Shown here: in pieces, positions 24,465-45,206 of the stretch
Numbering within the stretch: the first letter of the stretch is position 1
How the letters are laid out: each line of letters begins with the position of its first letter
Assembly: GCA_947494675.1 (NCBI GenBank)
Contig: CANLVP010000002.1
Location: forward strand, 310,001 to 374,000
DNA from: an uncultured Paracoccaceae bacterium
Lineage (GTDB): Bacteria; Pseudomonadota; Alphaproteobacteria; Rhodobacterales; Rhodobacteraceae
Length of the DNA stretch: 64,000 bases
Direction of reading: 5' to 3'
Position numbers and translations under genes: made by a program
The notes under the pieces: model-generated
What the model was told of the DNA's origin: nothing
Database searches by the model: none
What the model saw: the letters and a program-made list of their open reading frames with translations, nothing else

Positions 24465-25672
24465 TGCGCCGCGTGGTCATCACCGGGGCGGGCACGATCA
24501 ACCCGCTGGGTGGCGACGTGCCCACGACCTTTGAGGCGATGCGCGAAGGCCGTTGTGGCATTGGCCCCTTGGACATTCGCGACGTGGATCGCCTGTCGAT
24601 CCAGATCGGCGGGCAGGTGCGTGACTATGACGAACATGCGCATTTCAACCGCCAGCAGATCGCGCTTTATGATCGGTTCACGCAGTTTACCTTGCTTGCT
24701 GCACGGCAGGCGATTGAGGCGGCGGGGCTGACGTTCACGGGCTCATTGGCGGATCGGTCCGGTGTGATCCTTGGGACCTCTGGCGGGGGGCTGAACACGC
24801 AGGACGAAAACTACCGCGCGGTCTATGAAGAGGGTAAGAACCGGGTCCACCCCTTTATCGTGCCCAAGCTGATGAACAACGCCGCCGTTAGTCAGGTGTC
24901 GATGGAATGGAACCTGCGGGGCGCGTCCTTCACGGTGGCTACGGCCTGTGCCTCCAGCAATCACGCCATGGGGCAGGCGTTTAACATGATCCGCTGCGGC
25001 ATGGCGGACGTGATGATCACAGGCGGGTCCGAAAGCATGTTGTGCTTTGGTGGAATCAAGGCCTGGGAAGGGTTGCGGGTGATGTCCAAGGACGCCTGTC
25101 GTCCCTTCAGCGCCACCCGCAACGGTATGGTGCAAGGCGAAGGCGCGGGCGTCTTTGTGTTCGAAGACCGCGATCACGCGATCAAACGCGGCGCGGACAT
25201 CCTGTGCGAAGTGGCGGGTTTCGCGATGTCATCGGATGCCTCCGACATTGTGATGCCGTCCAAACAGGGCGCAGCGCGCGCCATCGCGGGCGCGGTGTCC
25301 GATGCTAAAATCCCGCGTGATGCGGTCGGCTATATCAATGCCCATGGCACCGGCACGGCGGCGAATGACAAGACGGAATGCGCGGCTGTCGCGGATGTCT
25401 TTGGGGCCCATGCGGACCAATTGATGATCTCATCCACCAAGTCGATGCACGGTCACTTGATCGGTGGCACCGGCGCGGTGGAACTTTTTGCCTGCATCAT
25501 GGCACTGCGAGATGGCGTGATTGCCCCGACAATTGGGTATGAGGAACCGGACCCCGAATGCGCGCTGGATGTGGTGCCGAATGAGGCGCGCGAGGCGAGT
25601 GTCGATGTGGCGCTGTCCAATGCCTTTGCCTTTGGCGGGCTGAACGCCGTCTTGGCCCTGCGCCGCGCTTAG
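24464..25672 (+). CDS. Beta-ketoacyl-[acyl carrier protein] synthase (KAS II-like)
   Basis: Condensing enzyme of fatty-acid synthesis, 402 aa. It has the catalytic triad of the KAS I/II class: Cys162 in TACASSNHAMG, His in NAHGTGTAANDKTE and His in MHGHLIGGTGAVE, with the usual late FGGLNAVL segment. It is not the main fabF by context: it is coupled to a specialised ACP and sits beside lpxD. It may elongate an acyl chain destined for lipid A or another envelope lipid. Confidence 0.92.
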   Translation: MRRVVITGAGTINPLGGDVPTTFEAMREGRCGIGPLDIRDVDRLSIQIGGQVRDYDEHAHFNRQQIALYDRFTQFTLLAARQAIEAAGLTFTGSLADRSGVILGTSGGGLNTQDENYRAVYEEGKNRVHPFIVPKLMNNAAVSQVSMEWNLRGASFTVATACASSNHAMGQAFNMIRCGMADVMITGGSESMLCFGGIKAWEGLRVMSKDACRPFSATRNGMVQGEGAGVFVFEDRDHAIKRGADILCEVAGFAMSSDASDIVMPSKQGAARAIAGAVSDAKIPRDAVGYINAHGTGTAANDKTECAAVADVFGAHADQLMISSTKSMHGHLIGGTGAVELFACIMALRDGVIAPTIGYEEPDPECALDVVPNEAREASVDVALSNAFAFGGLNAVLALRRA

Positions 25673-25686
25673 GTCGTAGCCCAACG

Positions 25687-25717
25687 AAAAAGGCCGCCCC
25701 GGAATGGAACGGCCTTT
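25687..25717. terminator. Bidirectional terminator between ketoacyl synthase and ialB genes
   Basis: AAAAAGGCCG pairs with CGGCCTTT across a 13-nt loop, with A- and T-rich ends on the two sides, between the convergent stops at 25672 and 25736. Confidence 0.75.
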
Positions 25718-25735
25718 GATCAGATTTGATGTCGC

Positions 25736-26359
25736 TTATTCTTCGACGTTCACCACGCCTTCAAAGCCCGCTGTGAAGCCCGAAAGGGACACGTCCAACA
25801 GCACCTCTTGATCAGGAGCGGCGGCTGGAACAAGGCGCAGCTGCGCAGCATTGCCACGCTTGAACTGTGCCACTTCTTCAGCGGTAAAGCCGACGCGCGA
25901 TACGCAGCCTGCAGCATTGCAGAAGGTGAACGGATAGCGCCGCGCCTGACCGCCATCAACCGACAGGGTCAGCTGCTGGGTCAGCAGGGTTTCAAGCGGG
26001 ACCACGATGGTGGCACCAGCCGCGGCCTGACCACCGGGGGGCAGTGGGAACATGCTCATCTCTGCGACAGCATTGCCGTCACCGTCCAGCAGCAATTGGT
26101 AAAGCTGGCAGGGGTCTTTTTGACCCTCGGGTTGTTTCAGGCAGCGCAGTGCCCAATCGCCAAACTCTTCCAGAATGTAAGGCGCGCCGGGCGCAAGTGA
26201 CGCAAGCGTTTCGGCGTTCACCGGCTCACCAAGGCTGAGGTCGTCTGGTGTGGACCCTGCGGGCGGCGTCGCCTCTTCGGTGGTGGTTTCCTGTGCGTAT
26301 GCTGTTGTGGCGGCCAATAACGACAGGCCAAGAACAAACGGTTTCAAGATGCTTTGCAT
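25736..26359 (-). CDS. Invasion-associated locus B (IalB) family protein
   Basis: Secreted or periplasmic protein of 207 aa. The N-terminus MQSILKPFVLGLSLLAATTAYAQE is a clear signal peptide; an acidic Thr/Glu/Pro linker follows, then the IalB domain with FGDWALRCLKQ, PCQLYQLLL, a CNAAGC pair and a conserved strand near the C-terminus. The cysteines probably form disulfides. In Bartonella the founding member aids invasion; in free-living Rhodobacteraceae the role is unknown. ATG 26359 is chosen because GGAG lies 6 nt upstream. The unusual upstream region may regulate it. Confidence 0.85.
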   Translation of the reverse strand: MQSILKPFVLGLSLLAATTAYAQETTTEEATPPAGSTPDDLSLGEPVNAETLASLAPGAPYILEEFGDWALRCLKQPEGQKDPCQLYQLLLDGDGNAVAEMSMFPLPPGGQAAAGATIVVPLETLLTQQLTLSVDGGQARRYPFTFCNAAGCVSRVGFTAEEVAQFKRGNAAQLRLVPAAAPDQEVLLDVSLSGFTAGFEGVVNVEE

Positions 26360-26389
26360 CACATGCTCCATATTGATTTGGGCTCAGGA

Positions 26390-26497
26390 TTAGCATGGCT
26401 GATAGGTGGTGTCAGGTCCGAAATCATCATATCGGTGCGAGGTCGCCAACGGCCCCGAAAACGGAAAAAAGGGCCCGCTGGCGGACCCTTTTTCCAT
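26390..26497 (-). other. Possible leader peptide ORF upstream of ialB (35 codons)
   Basis: An ATG at 26497 (minus strand) follows AGGGAGA by a few bases and opens a 35-codon frame (MEKGSASGPFFPFSG...) that runs through the terminator hairpin and ends 30 nt before ialB. The Shine-Dalgarno and ATG lie inside the 13-bp inverted repeat. It may be a leader peptide or simply the body of a short RNA. Confidence 0.3.
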
Positions 26498-26525
26498 TCT
26501 CCCTGTCGGACTTGGCCGACTAATT
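26466..26525 (-). ncRNA. Candidate short RNA or attenuated leader of ialB (RNA-B)
   Basis: Read on the minus strand from a predicted start near 26525: a small hairpin GTCGG/CCGAC, a single-stranded ACAGGGAGAATGG (Shine-Dalgarno plus AUG), then a strong terminator GGGtCCGC/GCGGgCCC ending in TTTTTT (26466-26493). This makes an RNA of about 60 nt, with read-through feeding ialB. It is preceded by the promoter at 26532-26560. Predicted from sequence only. Confidence 0.4.
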
Positions 26526-26659
26526 GCAGGCAAGCTAGCCGCGTGGTTTCGCGGCGTCAACAGGATTTCGATCACAATTTGGGGTTGACGTTAAGCGGGG
26601 CAAAGACAGACAAAAAAAGGCCGCACCCAAGGGCGCGGCCAGTCTAACAGGGAGAATGG
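26494..26659. repeat. Perfect 13-bp inverted repeat bounding a 166-bp segment
   Basis: CCATTCTCCCTGT (26494-26506) is repeated in reverse complement as ACAGGGAGAATGG (26647-26659). The bounded segment holds a promoter and a terminator. No target-site duplication is seen (left flank TTTTT, right flank TGCCA), so a MITE is possible but not supported by flanks. Confidence 0.7.
26532..26560 (-). promoter_or_regulatory. Predicted minus-strand promoter for RNA-B / ialB
   Basis: On the minus strand a -35 TTGACG (plus 26555-26560), a 17-bp spacer and a -10 TAGCTT (plus 26532-26537). The spacer contains a GC hairpin CCGCG/CGCGG. The -10 match is modest. Confidence 0.4.
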
Positions 26660-26690
26660 TGCCAGCGACCCCGGGGGACATATGGGGCAA
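26612..26690 (-). ncRNA. Candidate short RNA with anti-Shine-Dalgarno segment (RNA-A)
   Basis: On the minus strand a weak promoter TTCTTA-17-TAATCG (plus 26720-26725 and 26697-26702) would start an RNA near 26690. Its body has unpaired CCATTCTCCCTGT (26647-26659), then a strong terminator: stem GGCCGC/GCGGCC with TTTTTTT (26612-26640). The CCATTCTCCCTGT is complementary over 13 nt to the SD-AUG of RNA-B and over 10 nt to the leader of the ABC binding-protein gene at 46998. No annotated gene accounts for this terminator. Confidence 0.35.
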
Positions 26691-26758
26691 CTGACGCGAT
26701 TACTCTGGCATGGAATGGTTAAGAATGTATTTTAGCCAAAAATGGGGAGGGGCAGCAC

Positions 26759-28300
26759 ATGTCTGACAGTATCTTTATCGGCGGCGGCGGCCCAGACTAT
26801 GCGCAAGCTCAGCAACTTTTGCTGGATAAGGCGAACCGGCACGGGCTGATCGCGGGGGCCACGGGCACCGGCAAAACGGTGACGTTGCAAATCCTGGCCG
26901 AGGGCTTTTCGGCGGCGGGCGTGCCGGTGTTTTTGTCGGACGTCAAAGGCGACCTTTCGGGGCTTGCCGCCAGCGGCACAGAGACCTTCAAGCTGCATGA
27001 CGCTTTCATGAAGCGCGCAAACACCATCGGGCTTGATCTGCAATACGACGCTTTCCCTGTCACCTTTTGGGATCTCTTTGGCGAACAAGGCCACCCCATC
27101 CGCGCCACCGTGGCCGAGATGGGGCCGCTGTTGCTCAGCCGCTTGCTGGAACTGACGGACGTGCAAGAGGGCGTGATGAACGTGGCTTTCCGTGTGGCCG
27201 ATGAAGAGGGCCTGCCGCTCTTGGACCTTAAGGACTTGCAGGCACTGCTGGTCTGGGTCGGGCAGAACGCCAAAGAACTCTCGTTGCGCTACGGCAATGT
27301 TGCTGCCTCCTCGGTAGGGGCGATCCAGCGTCAATTGCTGGTGATCGAAAATCAGGGCGGCAATGAGCTCTTTGGCGAACCCGCCCTTGATCTGGCTGAC
27401 ATCATCCGCACGGATACGGACGGGCGTGGTGCGATCAACATTCTGGCGGCCGACAAGCTGATGGCCAGCCCCAAGCTTTATGCCACTTTCCTGCTGTGGC
27501 TGCTGTCGGAGCTGTTTGAAGAGCTTCCCGAAGTTGGCAACCCCGATAAGCCCAAGCTGGTCTTCTTCTTCGACGAGGCGCATCTGCTGTTTGATGACGC
27601 GCCCAAGGCGCTCGTCGACAAAGTAGAACAGGTGGCACGCCTGATCCGCTCAAAAGGGGTCGGCGTCTACTTTATCACCCAAAACCCAGCCGATGTGCCG
27701 GATGACGTGTTGGGCCAGCTGGGCAACCGGGTGCAGCATGCGCTGCGCGCCTTTACCGCCAAGGATCGCAAGGACCTTACCAAAGCGGCAGAGACGTATC
27801 GCGAAAACCCCGCGTTTGACACCGCCGAGGCCATTCAAGAGGTCGGCACAGGCGAGGCTGTGACCTCTATGCTGGACGCCAAAGGATCGCCGATGATCGT
27901 GGAGCGGACGTTGATCCGCCCGCCATCATCACAGCTTGGCCCGCTTGATCCGGCGCTACGTGCCGGGATGCTCAAGGCCTCGCCCATGGCGGCGAAATAC
28001 GACGCGAAGCTTGATCGTGAAAGCGCGTTTGAGATGTTGCGTGGGCGGGCCGACAAGGCCGCCGCCGAGGCCGAAAAGGCCGAAGCCGAGGAAGAGGCCG
28101 CGGAGGCAGAATTGCGCGAGTTCAAAAAGGCCCGCCGCTATGATGGCGGTGGCACCGGGCGCAGCACGTCGCGCAAGACCAGCAATACGGTCGAAGGCTG
28201 GGGCGGTGCGATTGCGGATGTCGTCGTGAAAGAGCTCAAAGGCACAACCGGCAAGCGGATCGTGCGCGGCATTCTGGGCGGGCTCTTCAAGGGGCGCTAG
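26759..28300 (+). CDS. YjgR/DUF853 family HerA-like ATPase
   Basis: P-loop ATPase of 513 aa. Walker A is [13 protein letters not shown] near residue 33, Walker [19 protein letters not shown] near 265, and the arginine-finger region [16 protein letters not shown], which together fit the HerA/FtsK-like DUF853 (YjgR) family. Residues 425-460 form a Glu/Ala-rich coiled coil. Related enzymes are DNA translocases, but the role of YjgR is undefined. The Shine-Dalgarno GGGGAGGGG is strong. Its stop codon shares bases with the convergent gene's stop (CTAG). Confidence 0.88.
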
Positions 28301-44171: not shown

Positions 44172-45206
44172 TTATGAAATGCGGATGCGCGGGTTGAGGA
44201 ACACATATCCGATGTCGGATATGAGCTGCGTCACCAGCACCACGAAGACGGAAACGATTGAGACACCCAGCAAAAGCTCGATGTCGTTGTTGCGGGCCGC
44301 TTCGACCAGCGTCCAACCAAAGCCTTTGTAGTTGAACAGGGTCTCAACGATCACAACGCCGTTCAAGAGCCACGGGAATTGCAACATGATCACTGTAAAG
44401 GGTGCGATCAAAGCGTTCCGCAAGGCGTGGCGGATGACGATCTTGGGAAAGCTGACGCCCTTGAGGCGGGCGGTGCGGATGTACTGCGCGGTCATCACCT
44501 CGGTCATCGAGGCGCGGGTCATGCGCGCGATATAGCCCATGCCGTAAAGCGCGATGGTGATGACAGGCAGAAAGAAGTTTTCAAAGTTCGCGTCATCGAT
44601 GGCCGACGTGGCCGAGCCTTTGAACGGGATCGTGTCCCAGTCGATGATCACCTTGGTCCCGAGCACGGCAATCAGGATCACGCCCGACACATATTCGGGC
44701 GTTGCGGTTGAGACGATGGAGGCCGTGGACAGGGTGCGATCGGTGCCAGAGCCTTCGCGCATCCCGGCCAGCACGCCGATCAGCAGGGCGCCGGGGACCA
44801 TTACCATCATCACCCAGAACATCAGCTTACCCGTCGCGCCAAGCCGGGTGCTGACGATGGTGCTGACGTTATCCTTGAAGACGGTTGAAAAGCCCCAGTC
44901 GCCTTGGATGACGCCACAAAAGGTTTTGCCTTCTTCGCAGCGGCTGCGGACCTCGCCGTCAGACCCCTCGATCACGTATCCCGGCAAGACGCCAAGCCAT
45001 TGTCCGTATTTGACCGGCAGCGCCTGTTGGTAGCCACGGTTGGTCAGATAGCTGGTCACAGCCTCATCCGACATGCGAAAGTTGCCTTGGGTTTTGGCGA
45101 GCTTTTCAAGGTTCGGATAAAGGTTGGTCAGCCAGAAGACGATGAATGTCAGGCAGAGCGCCGTCAGGAGCATGACCCCAACCCGGCGAAGAATAAACAG
45201 TCCCAT
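44172..45206 (-). CDS. Peptide-type ABC transporter permease (DppB-like)
   Basis: Inner-membrane permease of 344 aa with an N-terminal transmembrane segment (MGLFILRRVGVMLLTALCLTF), a periplasmic stretch, and five more spans with the DppB-type ARMTRASMTEVM EAA loop. It lies 12 nt upstream of the DppC-like gene and 131 nt downstream of the binding-protein gene, after a terminator. Confidence 0.9.
   Translation of the reverse strand: MGLFILRRVGVMLLTALCLTFIVFWLTNLYPNLEKLAKTQGNFRMSDEAVTSYLTNRGYQQALPVKYGQWLGVLPGYVIEGSDGEVRSRCEEGKTFCGVIQGDWGFSTVFKDNVSTIVSTRLGATGKLMFWVMMVMVPGALLIGVLAGMREGSGTDRTLSTASIVSTATPEYVSGVILIAVLGTKVIIDWDTIPFKGSATSAIDDANFENFFLPVITIALYGMGYIARMTRASMTEVMTAQYIRTARLKGVSFPKIVIRHALRNALIAPFTVIMLQFPWLLNGVVIVETLFNYKGFGWTLVEAARNNDIELLLGVSIVSVFVVLVTQLISDIGYVFLNPRIRIS

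Follow-up and report, generated by a model that had tools for sequence, protein, structure and literature searches.

What do two short RNAs do to each other when one carries the exact complement of part of its neighbour? The question is raised by the 387 bases between a gene for a HerA-like ATPase and ialB in a stretch of 64,000 nucleotides (nt), here called the window, from an uncultured Paracoccaceae bacterium. The original prediction placed two short RNAs there on the minus strand, RNA-A and RNA-B, with 13 complementary nt covering a Shine-Dalgarno (SD) sequence and an AUG, and proposed that RNA-A could silence RNA-B, taken as a possible ialB leader, in trans, or that the two could fold together in a read-through transcript. 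The observation is confirmed and its interpretation is partly supported. It appears likely that RNA-B is a trans-acting sponge for the alphaR8/SorX-type class of small RNAs (sRNAs), similar to the sponge CrfA but with a different layout. Action in trans is still the most likely, but a leader role for RNA-B and an SD-AUG as the point of the pairing are not supported, and the roles are probably reversed: RNA-A would be the SD-binding sRNA and RNA-B its decoy.

On the minus strand, the order of elements is a conserved block, the RNA-A hairpin, ACCATTCTCCCTGTTAGACT, the RNA-A terminator and the RNA-B promoter, followed by the RNA-B hairpin, AGGGAGAAT, the RNA-B terminator, a promoter-like CTGACA-N14-TGCTA ahead of ialB, and ialB itself. 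Three models were used: R1, an RNA-only model of RNA-B that includes a doubtful GGGG:CCUU pairing from RNAalifold; R2, a model of RNA-A; and R3, a survey model made from the promoter and core of RNA-B. The two RNAs and their parts are as follows.

26612-26695 (5' end approximate), minus strand: RNA-A, a predicted alphaR8/SorX-type sRNA, from its fold, synteny, and Rfam and R2 scores
26695-26661, 26660-26641 and 26640-26612, minus strand: 5' hairpin, single-stranded core and terminator of RNA-A, from folding
26637-26659, minus strand: pairing region of RNA-A, CCATTCTCCCTGTTAGACTGGCC, read directly; duplex with RNA-B of -43.1 kcal/mol
26532-26560, minus strand: promoter of RNA-B, TTGACG - 17 nt - TAGCTT, conserved in relatives with the consensus TTGAC-N17/18-TAgCGT
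26465-26525, minus strand: RNA-B, a predicted 61-nt sponge-like RNA, from its fold and model R3, its start placed from the promoter
26520-26505 and 26488-26465, minus strand: 5' hairpin and terminator of RNA-B, with the exposed AGGGAGAAU, from folding
26494-26520, minus strand: pairing region of RNA-B, GTCGGCCAAGTCCGACAGGGAGAATGG, from a repeat search and duplex energies

The 13-mer CCATTCTCCCTGT (minus strand, 26647-26659) has its exact complement at 26494-26506, as had been noted. The genome of 3,918,034 bases holds no exact copies beyond these two, and three more sites with one mismatch. The 13 nt are part of a longer duplex, found by the repeat search as 19 nt at 89%. RNA-B displays GGCCAGUCCGAC[A/G]GGGAG, the complement of the RNA-A core. 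The sequence to which the conserved core of RNA-B is complementary, CUCCCUGU[C/U]GGACUGGCC, is common, with small differences, to RNA-A and to two copies of SorX in the same genome. SorX (RF02784) is a stress sRNA of Rhodobacter sphaeroides derived from a 3' untranslated region (UTR). The duplexes formed with the RNA-B core reach -43.1 kcal/mol for RNA-A, -40.6 for SorX and -39.2 for the second SorX copy, with co-folding gains of -25.6, -23.5 and -24.0 kcal/mol, respectively. None of 25,506 other 30-nt windows of the 64 kb pairs with RNA-B as well as these three partners (best, -32.1 kcal/mol), and the pairing of RNA-A with RNA-B therefore exceeds chance.

GGGAG/CUCCC pairing is generic, and RNA-B is retained in genomes in which RNA-A is not found beside it. 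Both facts would suit an RNA-B that regulates mRNAs at CU-rich sites and resembles a partner of SorX-type RNAs through shared SD and anti-SD letters. However, the complementarity extends past GGGAG through GGCCAGUCCGAC, to a part of RNA-A and SorX outside the SD-like core, and no partner as good as these occurs elsewhere in the 64 kb searched. This explanation is considered improbable.

The distribution of the two RNAs was surveyed in 149 genomes of the same family and in class samples of 385 and 289 genomes, with strict filters and a limited number of candidates scored per genome, so that misses are possible. At the DNA level, the intergenic region matched 93 of the 149 family genomes, mostly in the RNA-A or the RNA-B block, and some matches at other places are SorX-type copies. 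R3 matched 131 of the 149, once in each: RNA-B is single-copy and kept in most of the family genomes sampled. Among the 385 class genomes R3 matched five, all of the same family as the window. In these five, R1 scores 48.5-69.8 bits, against 26.3 bits for the best match outside the family. At E <= 0.01, R1 matches 147 of the 385, and those outside the family are read collectively, on their scores, as noise. The RNA-B models thus have no clear relative outside the family in the class sample, and on these searches RNA-B appears, so far, to be confined to the family. At a threshold of E <= 1e-4, R2 matches 77 of the 289 class genomes (a few matches cover the terminator half only), and the RNA-A kind therefore looks widespread, whereas RNA-B does not.

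The set used to compare the pair comprises 132 genomes, the 131 found by R3 and one, G146, that was placed by a hidden Markov model at 15.3 bits. An RNA-A match lies upstream of RNA-B and adjoins it in 119 of these (four of the matches are below 20 bits), at model distances from 11 to 400 nt; the remaining 13 have no RNA-A match beside RNA-B. Each of the 13 carries a SorX match elsewhere in its genome. The SorX model in fact matches all 132 genomes with RNA-B at E <= 0.001, and the eight of 149 that have none also lack RNA-B (8 of the 17 without RNA-B), a count that ignores descent. Named genomes yielded at least 80 loci in a pattern scan. Among the matches listed, herA and/or ialB is seen beside RNA-B in 71 of 80, and the nine others are seven from Streptomyces or Actinomadura, one from Ancylobacter and one on a short Limimaricola contig. 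RNA-A is present at an alignment score of at least 47 in 59 of 72 loci among those listed, the window included, one of the 72 being too near a contig end to judge. Since these named loci were selected with a search pattern, the RNA-B motif is to some extent bound to be invariant among them.

Across the 119 genomes with an adjoining pair, the cognate RNA-A:RNA-B duplexes average -36.10 kcal/mol against a permutation mean of -35.40 (none of 5000 permutations was as good), and shuffled RNA-A gives a mean of -15.9 kcal/mol with RNA-B. The perfect run of 13 is special to a few genomes (5/119), while a run of at least 9 is found in 73 of 119, compared to 2 of 119 with shuffled RNA-B. ACUUG in RNA-A co-occurs with AAGU in RNA-B in 9/11 cases vs 9/108. 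RNA-B is read as a sponge for a class of sRNAs rather than as a regulator of one neighbour because its pairing with SorX is at least as strong as that with RNA-A (means of -39.7 and -37.6 kcal/mol in 25 genomes), and because it persists without an adjacent RNA-A, always together with a SorX match.

By its sequence and predicted fold, RNA-A itself is probably related as a sibling to the alphaR8 (MmgR/SisA) and SorX sRNAs, and of the SD-binding type with an anti-SD core. Anti-SD regulators of the alphaR8 type are widespread in Alphaproteobacteria and are built as a hairpin 5' of the core and a Rho-independent terminator 3' of it. Folding gives RNA-A the same build. With its 5' hairpin, it folds at -37.2 kcal/mol (z -3.5), and the 5' regions of relatives have a mean z of -3.1 against mononucleotide shuffles (100 excisable of the 119 genomes). 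The core is exposed, with a median of 0.68 unpaired and more than half unpaired in 75% of 114 genomes, and its CUCCCUGU is invariant across 56 aligned rows. The terminator stem is conserved too, with changes on both sides at five of eight pairs. R2, whose own rows include the window, scores the RNA-A of the window at 63 bits.

SorX and mmgR/alphaR8 are the nearest Rfam families to RNA-A. Of 19 orthologous RNA-A loci scanned, 18 match SorX at 28.9-38.9 bits, all under the gathering score, and one has no SorX match at the limit used; mmgR matches four of the 19, at best with 40.8 bits (gathering score 41). Aligned with alphaR8 (Rfam RF00519, "suhB"), RNA-A has the same order of parts, namely hairpin, exposed CUCCCU core, GACU and terminator. 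At the alphaR8 10-mer UUUCCUCCCU, the window has CAUUCUCCCU, identical at seven of ten positions. Among the 56 aligned rows, the identity is 10/10 in 14, 9 in 35, 8 in 5 and 7 in 2, and in the 119-genome set it is 10/10 in 12, 9 in 86, 8 in 9 and 7 in 7, with five unscorable. The RNA-A of the window differs from alphaR8 in this 10-mer, in its 22.1 bits and in its place by herA and ialB; most species have one alphaR8 copy, next to an N-formylglutamate amidohydrolase gene, according to excerpts of PMC12559287.

With SorX, RNA-A has in common CUCCCUGU..GACUGGCC and the terminator. However, RNA-A does not lie in the 3' UTR of an ompR-type gene, a place that is occupied by the best SorX match of the genome (68.0 bits; locus L156), downstream of a response-regulator gene (Pfam Response_reg, Trans_reg_C). 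A second SorX-type RNA above the Rfam cut-off, with 54.2 bits, lies at C2:776189-776253 (L157), downstream of a LysR-type gene. The fourth SorX match of the genome is weak (20.9 bits).

RNA-B folds at -28.0 kcal/mol (z -3.2). Both predicted units do have a terminator that folds, as originally proposed; a pattern scan listed that of RNA-A alone (26640-26612). A promoter had also been proposed for each unit. That of RNA-A is uncertain, whereas that of RNA-B, TTGACG-N17-TAGCTT, is conserved in relatives. All 53 aligned rows share its TTGAC, which was not in the search pattern, and both boxes were matched by a regular expression in 117 of the 132 genomes. At two loci, L065 and L237 (G007), RNA-B has an extra stretch, hairpin-like by reading, between GGGAG and the terminator, and neither locus has a recognisable RNA-A.

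Since both RNAs end in strong terminators and the two repeat arms run in opposite directions in the DNA, the elements might chiefly serve as terminators, or as an inverted repeat at the level of the DNA, and have no role in pairing. This is very hard to believe. The promoter and pairing region of RNA-B are conserved (the latter, in the named set, partly through the search pattern), but the stem of the RNA-B terminator is variable, and the invariant CUCCCUGU of RNA-A lies outside the stem, even though the stem of RNA-A is conserved as well.

Could RNA-B instead be the 5' leader or attenuator of ialB, with the pairing acting in cis on termination or translation, including in transcripts that read through from RNA-A? 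Two features downstream bear on this.

26391-26415, minus strand: ialB promoter-like element CTGACA-N14-TGCTA, separate from RNA-B and conserved in relatives
25736-26371, minus strand: ialB, a flanking gene (Pfam IalB, 3e-35)

An ialB homologue does lie downstream in most of the named loci among the matches listed, and the joined transcript of 239 nt folds with RNA-A paired to RNA-B (z -7.7), as the read-through proposal had envisaged. However, the ialB promoter-like site follows the RNA-B terminator. CTGACA-N14-TGnTA, a pattern fitted after seeing examples, is found in 85 of 132 loci, always with the 14-nt spacing, compared to 0.24% of mononucleotide shuffles; earlier patterns gave 0/132 (strict, 15-19 nt spacing) and 5/132 (loose). 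RNA-B also keeps its own conserved promoter, 13 of 132 genomes have no RNA-A match beside it, and the distance between the two models varies widely, which together make a role in cis less likely. The AUG that had been taken as the point of pairing follows GGGAG by 1 nt in the window and is not conserved: of the 123 relatives with an exact GGGAG, 19 have an ATG 4-10 nt downstream of it (nine of 132 have no exact GGGAG; counted from GGGA, it is 20/132). With a promoter-like element of this kind for ialB and no conserved AUG, a leader or attenuator role for RNA-B is judged unlikely.

Several points weigh against the sponge reading of RNA-B. RNA-A does not reach the Rfam gathering score of either SorX (36.3 vs 46.6 bits) or mmgR (22.1 vs 41 bits). 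Its promoter is an uncertain candidate only, a strict sigma-70 scan finding no site anywhere in 25000-28000. The exact TTGAC-N17/18-TAGCGT string of the RNA-B promoter occurs at three sites in the genome, and the copy in the window reads TAGCTT. When a fixed segment of 82 nt is folded, the GGGAG of RNA-B has a median of 0.40 unpaired, and only 27% of the 132 genomes exceed one half. The advantage of cognate RNA-A:RNA-B pairs is small, 0.7 kcal/mol, in a statistic that ignores kinship. SorX:RNA-B pairs have no clear cognate advantage (z -1.6 in 27 genomes, two of 29 SorX loci with no CTCCC near the centre being left out). Covariation of RNA-A with RNA-B on a HerA/IalB tree amounts to one or two independent pairs on supported branches and is inseparable from common descent. 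Wherever a genome has RNA-A, the SorX tally counts it too, and three of the 13 genomes that lack an adjacent RNA-A have a SorX match under the SorX cut-off. Finally, the computation covers the two RNA units, how well they and their gene order are conserved, the conserved promoter of RNA-B, and how RNA-B complements the three best SorX-model matches of the genome; that the RNAs are transcribed, depend on Hfq, titrate their partners or bring about their decay, and have a physiological role is inferred.

The current thinking is that the intergenic region would encode two separate minus-strand sRNAs. The exposed CUCCCUGU core of RNA-A may bind the SD regions of mRNAs, probably on Hfq. A small hairpin of RNA-B, together with the linker that leads to the terminator, would offer the SD-like GGCCAGUCCGAC[A/G]GGGAG, and RNA-B could capture RNA-A and other SorX-type RNAs through a duplex of about 18 nt. 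The captured RNAs would then be blocked or destabilised. By analogy with SorX, this suggests a role in oxidative stress.

The closest known system is CrfA, which sponges the alphaR8 RNAs SisA-D of Caulobacter crescentus through their UUUCCUCCCU core, on Hfq, according to excerpts of PMC12559287. Both CrfA and RNA-B are small RNAs complementary to the CU-rich core of several alphaR8 siblings in one genome, RNA-B having three partners in its own genome at -39 to -43 kcal/mol. CrfA binds through a G/A-rich second stem loop, whereas the predicted site of RNA-B is the first hairpin with the following linker and GGGAG. Unlike CrfA, RNA-B adjoins one of its predicted targets. These comparisons are with the description of CrfA rather than with its sequence. 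Sponge logic is also known from more distant bacteria, such as QrrX of Vibrio against sibling sRNAs (PMC12559287, excerpts) and the RoxS sponge of Bacillus, in a partial account, against a riboregulator.

Within the same bacterial family as the window, StsR and UpsM of R. sphaeroides are likewise a pair in which one sRNA acts on another, as described in parts of PMC8307010, PMC11354728, PMC8625941 and PMC5089854. Identity with that pair was rejected: the mraZ leader of the window's own genome (410 nt, the place of UpsM) pairs over at most nine contiguous nt with RNA-A or RNA-B. No published description of the RNA-A/RNA-B pair was found in the open literature searched, and a prior listing in RNA sequencing tables of R. 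sphaeroides is possible.

A bolder version of the sponge reading, which is tentative and stands somewhat short of an even chance, is that RNA-B is a dedicated, family-wide sponge for all Rhodobacteraceae alphaR8/SorX-type sRNAs and is independent of CrfA. It might have arisen by inverted duplication of the adjoining alphaR8 gene, since R2 matches the opposite strand of RNA-B weakly (13.6 bits). In that case, sponging of the alphaR8 class would have evolved on two or more occasions within Alphaproteobacteria, and it would act upstream of the stress control that depends on SorX. CrfA is the one sponge of this class in the literature covered, and RNA-B, if the sponge reading is true, would be a second and differently built one. 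Buffering of the alphaR8 class would then be a recurrent need, and SorX-dependent resistance to oxidative stress would have an extra layer of control.

The bacterial family in which RNA-B is kept includes the model bacterium R. sphaeroides. Genome G051 is probably strain 2.4.1, since its SorX at 2,598,225 coincides with the published SorX 5' end at 2,598,224 (PMC6238624, in excerpt). RNA-B lies there at C4:1,426,571-1,426,642 (minus strand), ahead of an ialB-like gene, and these coordinates give the address for a test in the laboratory strain. The gene upstream of RNA-A in this genome is catalase-related (L210, 913-1200; Pfam Catalase-rel).

Two features remain at the herA end of the intergenic region.

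26759-28300, plus strand: HerA-like ATPase gene, a flanking gene (Pfam HerA_C, 6e-223)
26699-26727, strand unassigned: conserved block TTAACC...TGCCAG between herA and RNA-A, from conserved alignment columns

By its sequence, the block is probably the herA promoter, maybe shared with RNA-A. It reads as CTGGCA-N17-TATTTT in the direction of herA and includes what we take to be a CtrA-like half-site. Elsewhere in the window, positions 44417-44595 (plus strand) match the Rfam family Cis52_sRNA of Ruegeria with 116 bits, against a gathering score of 56.
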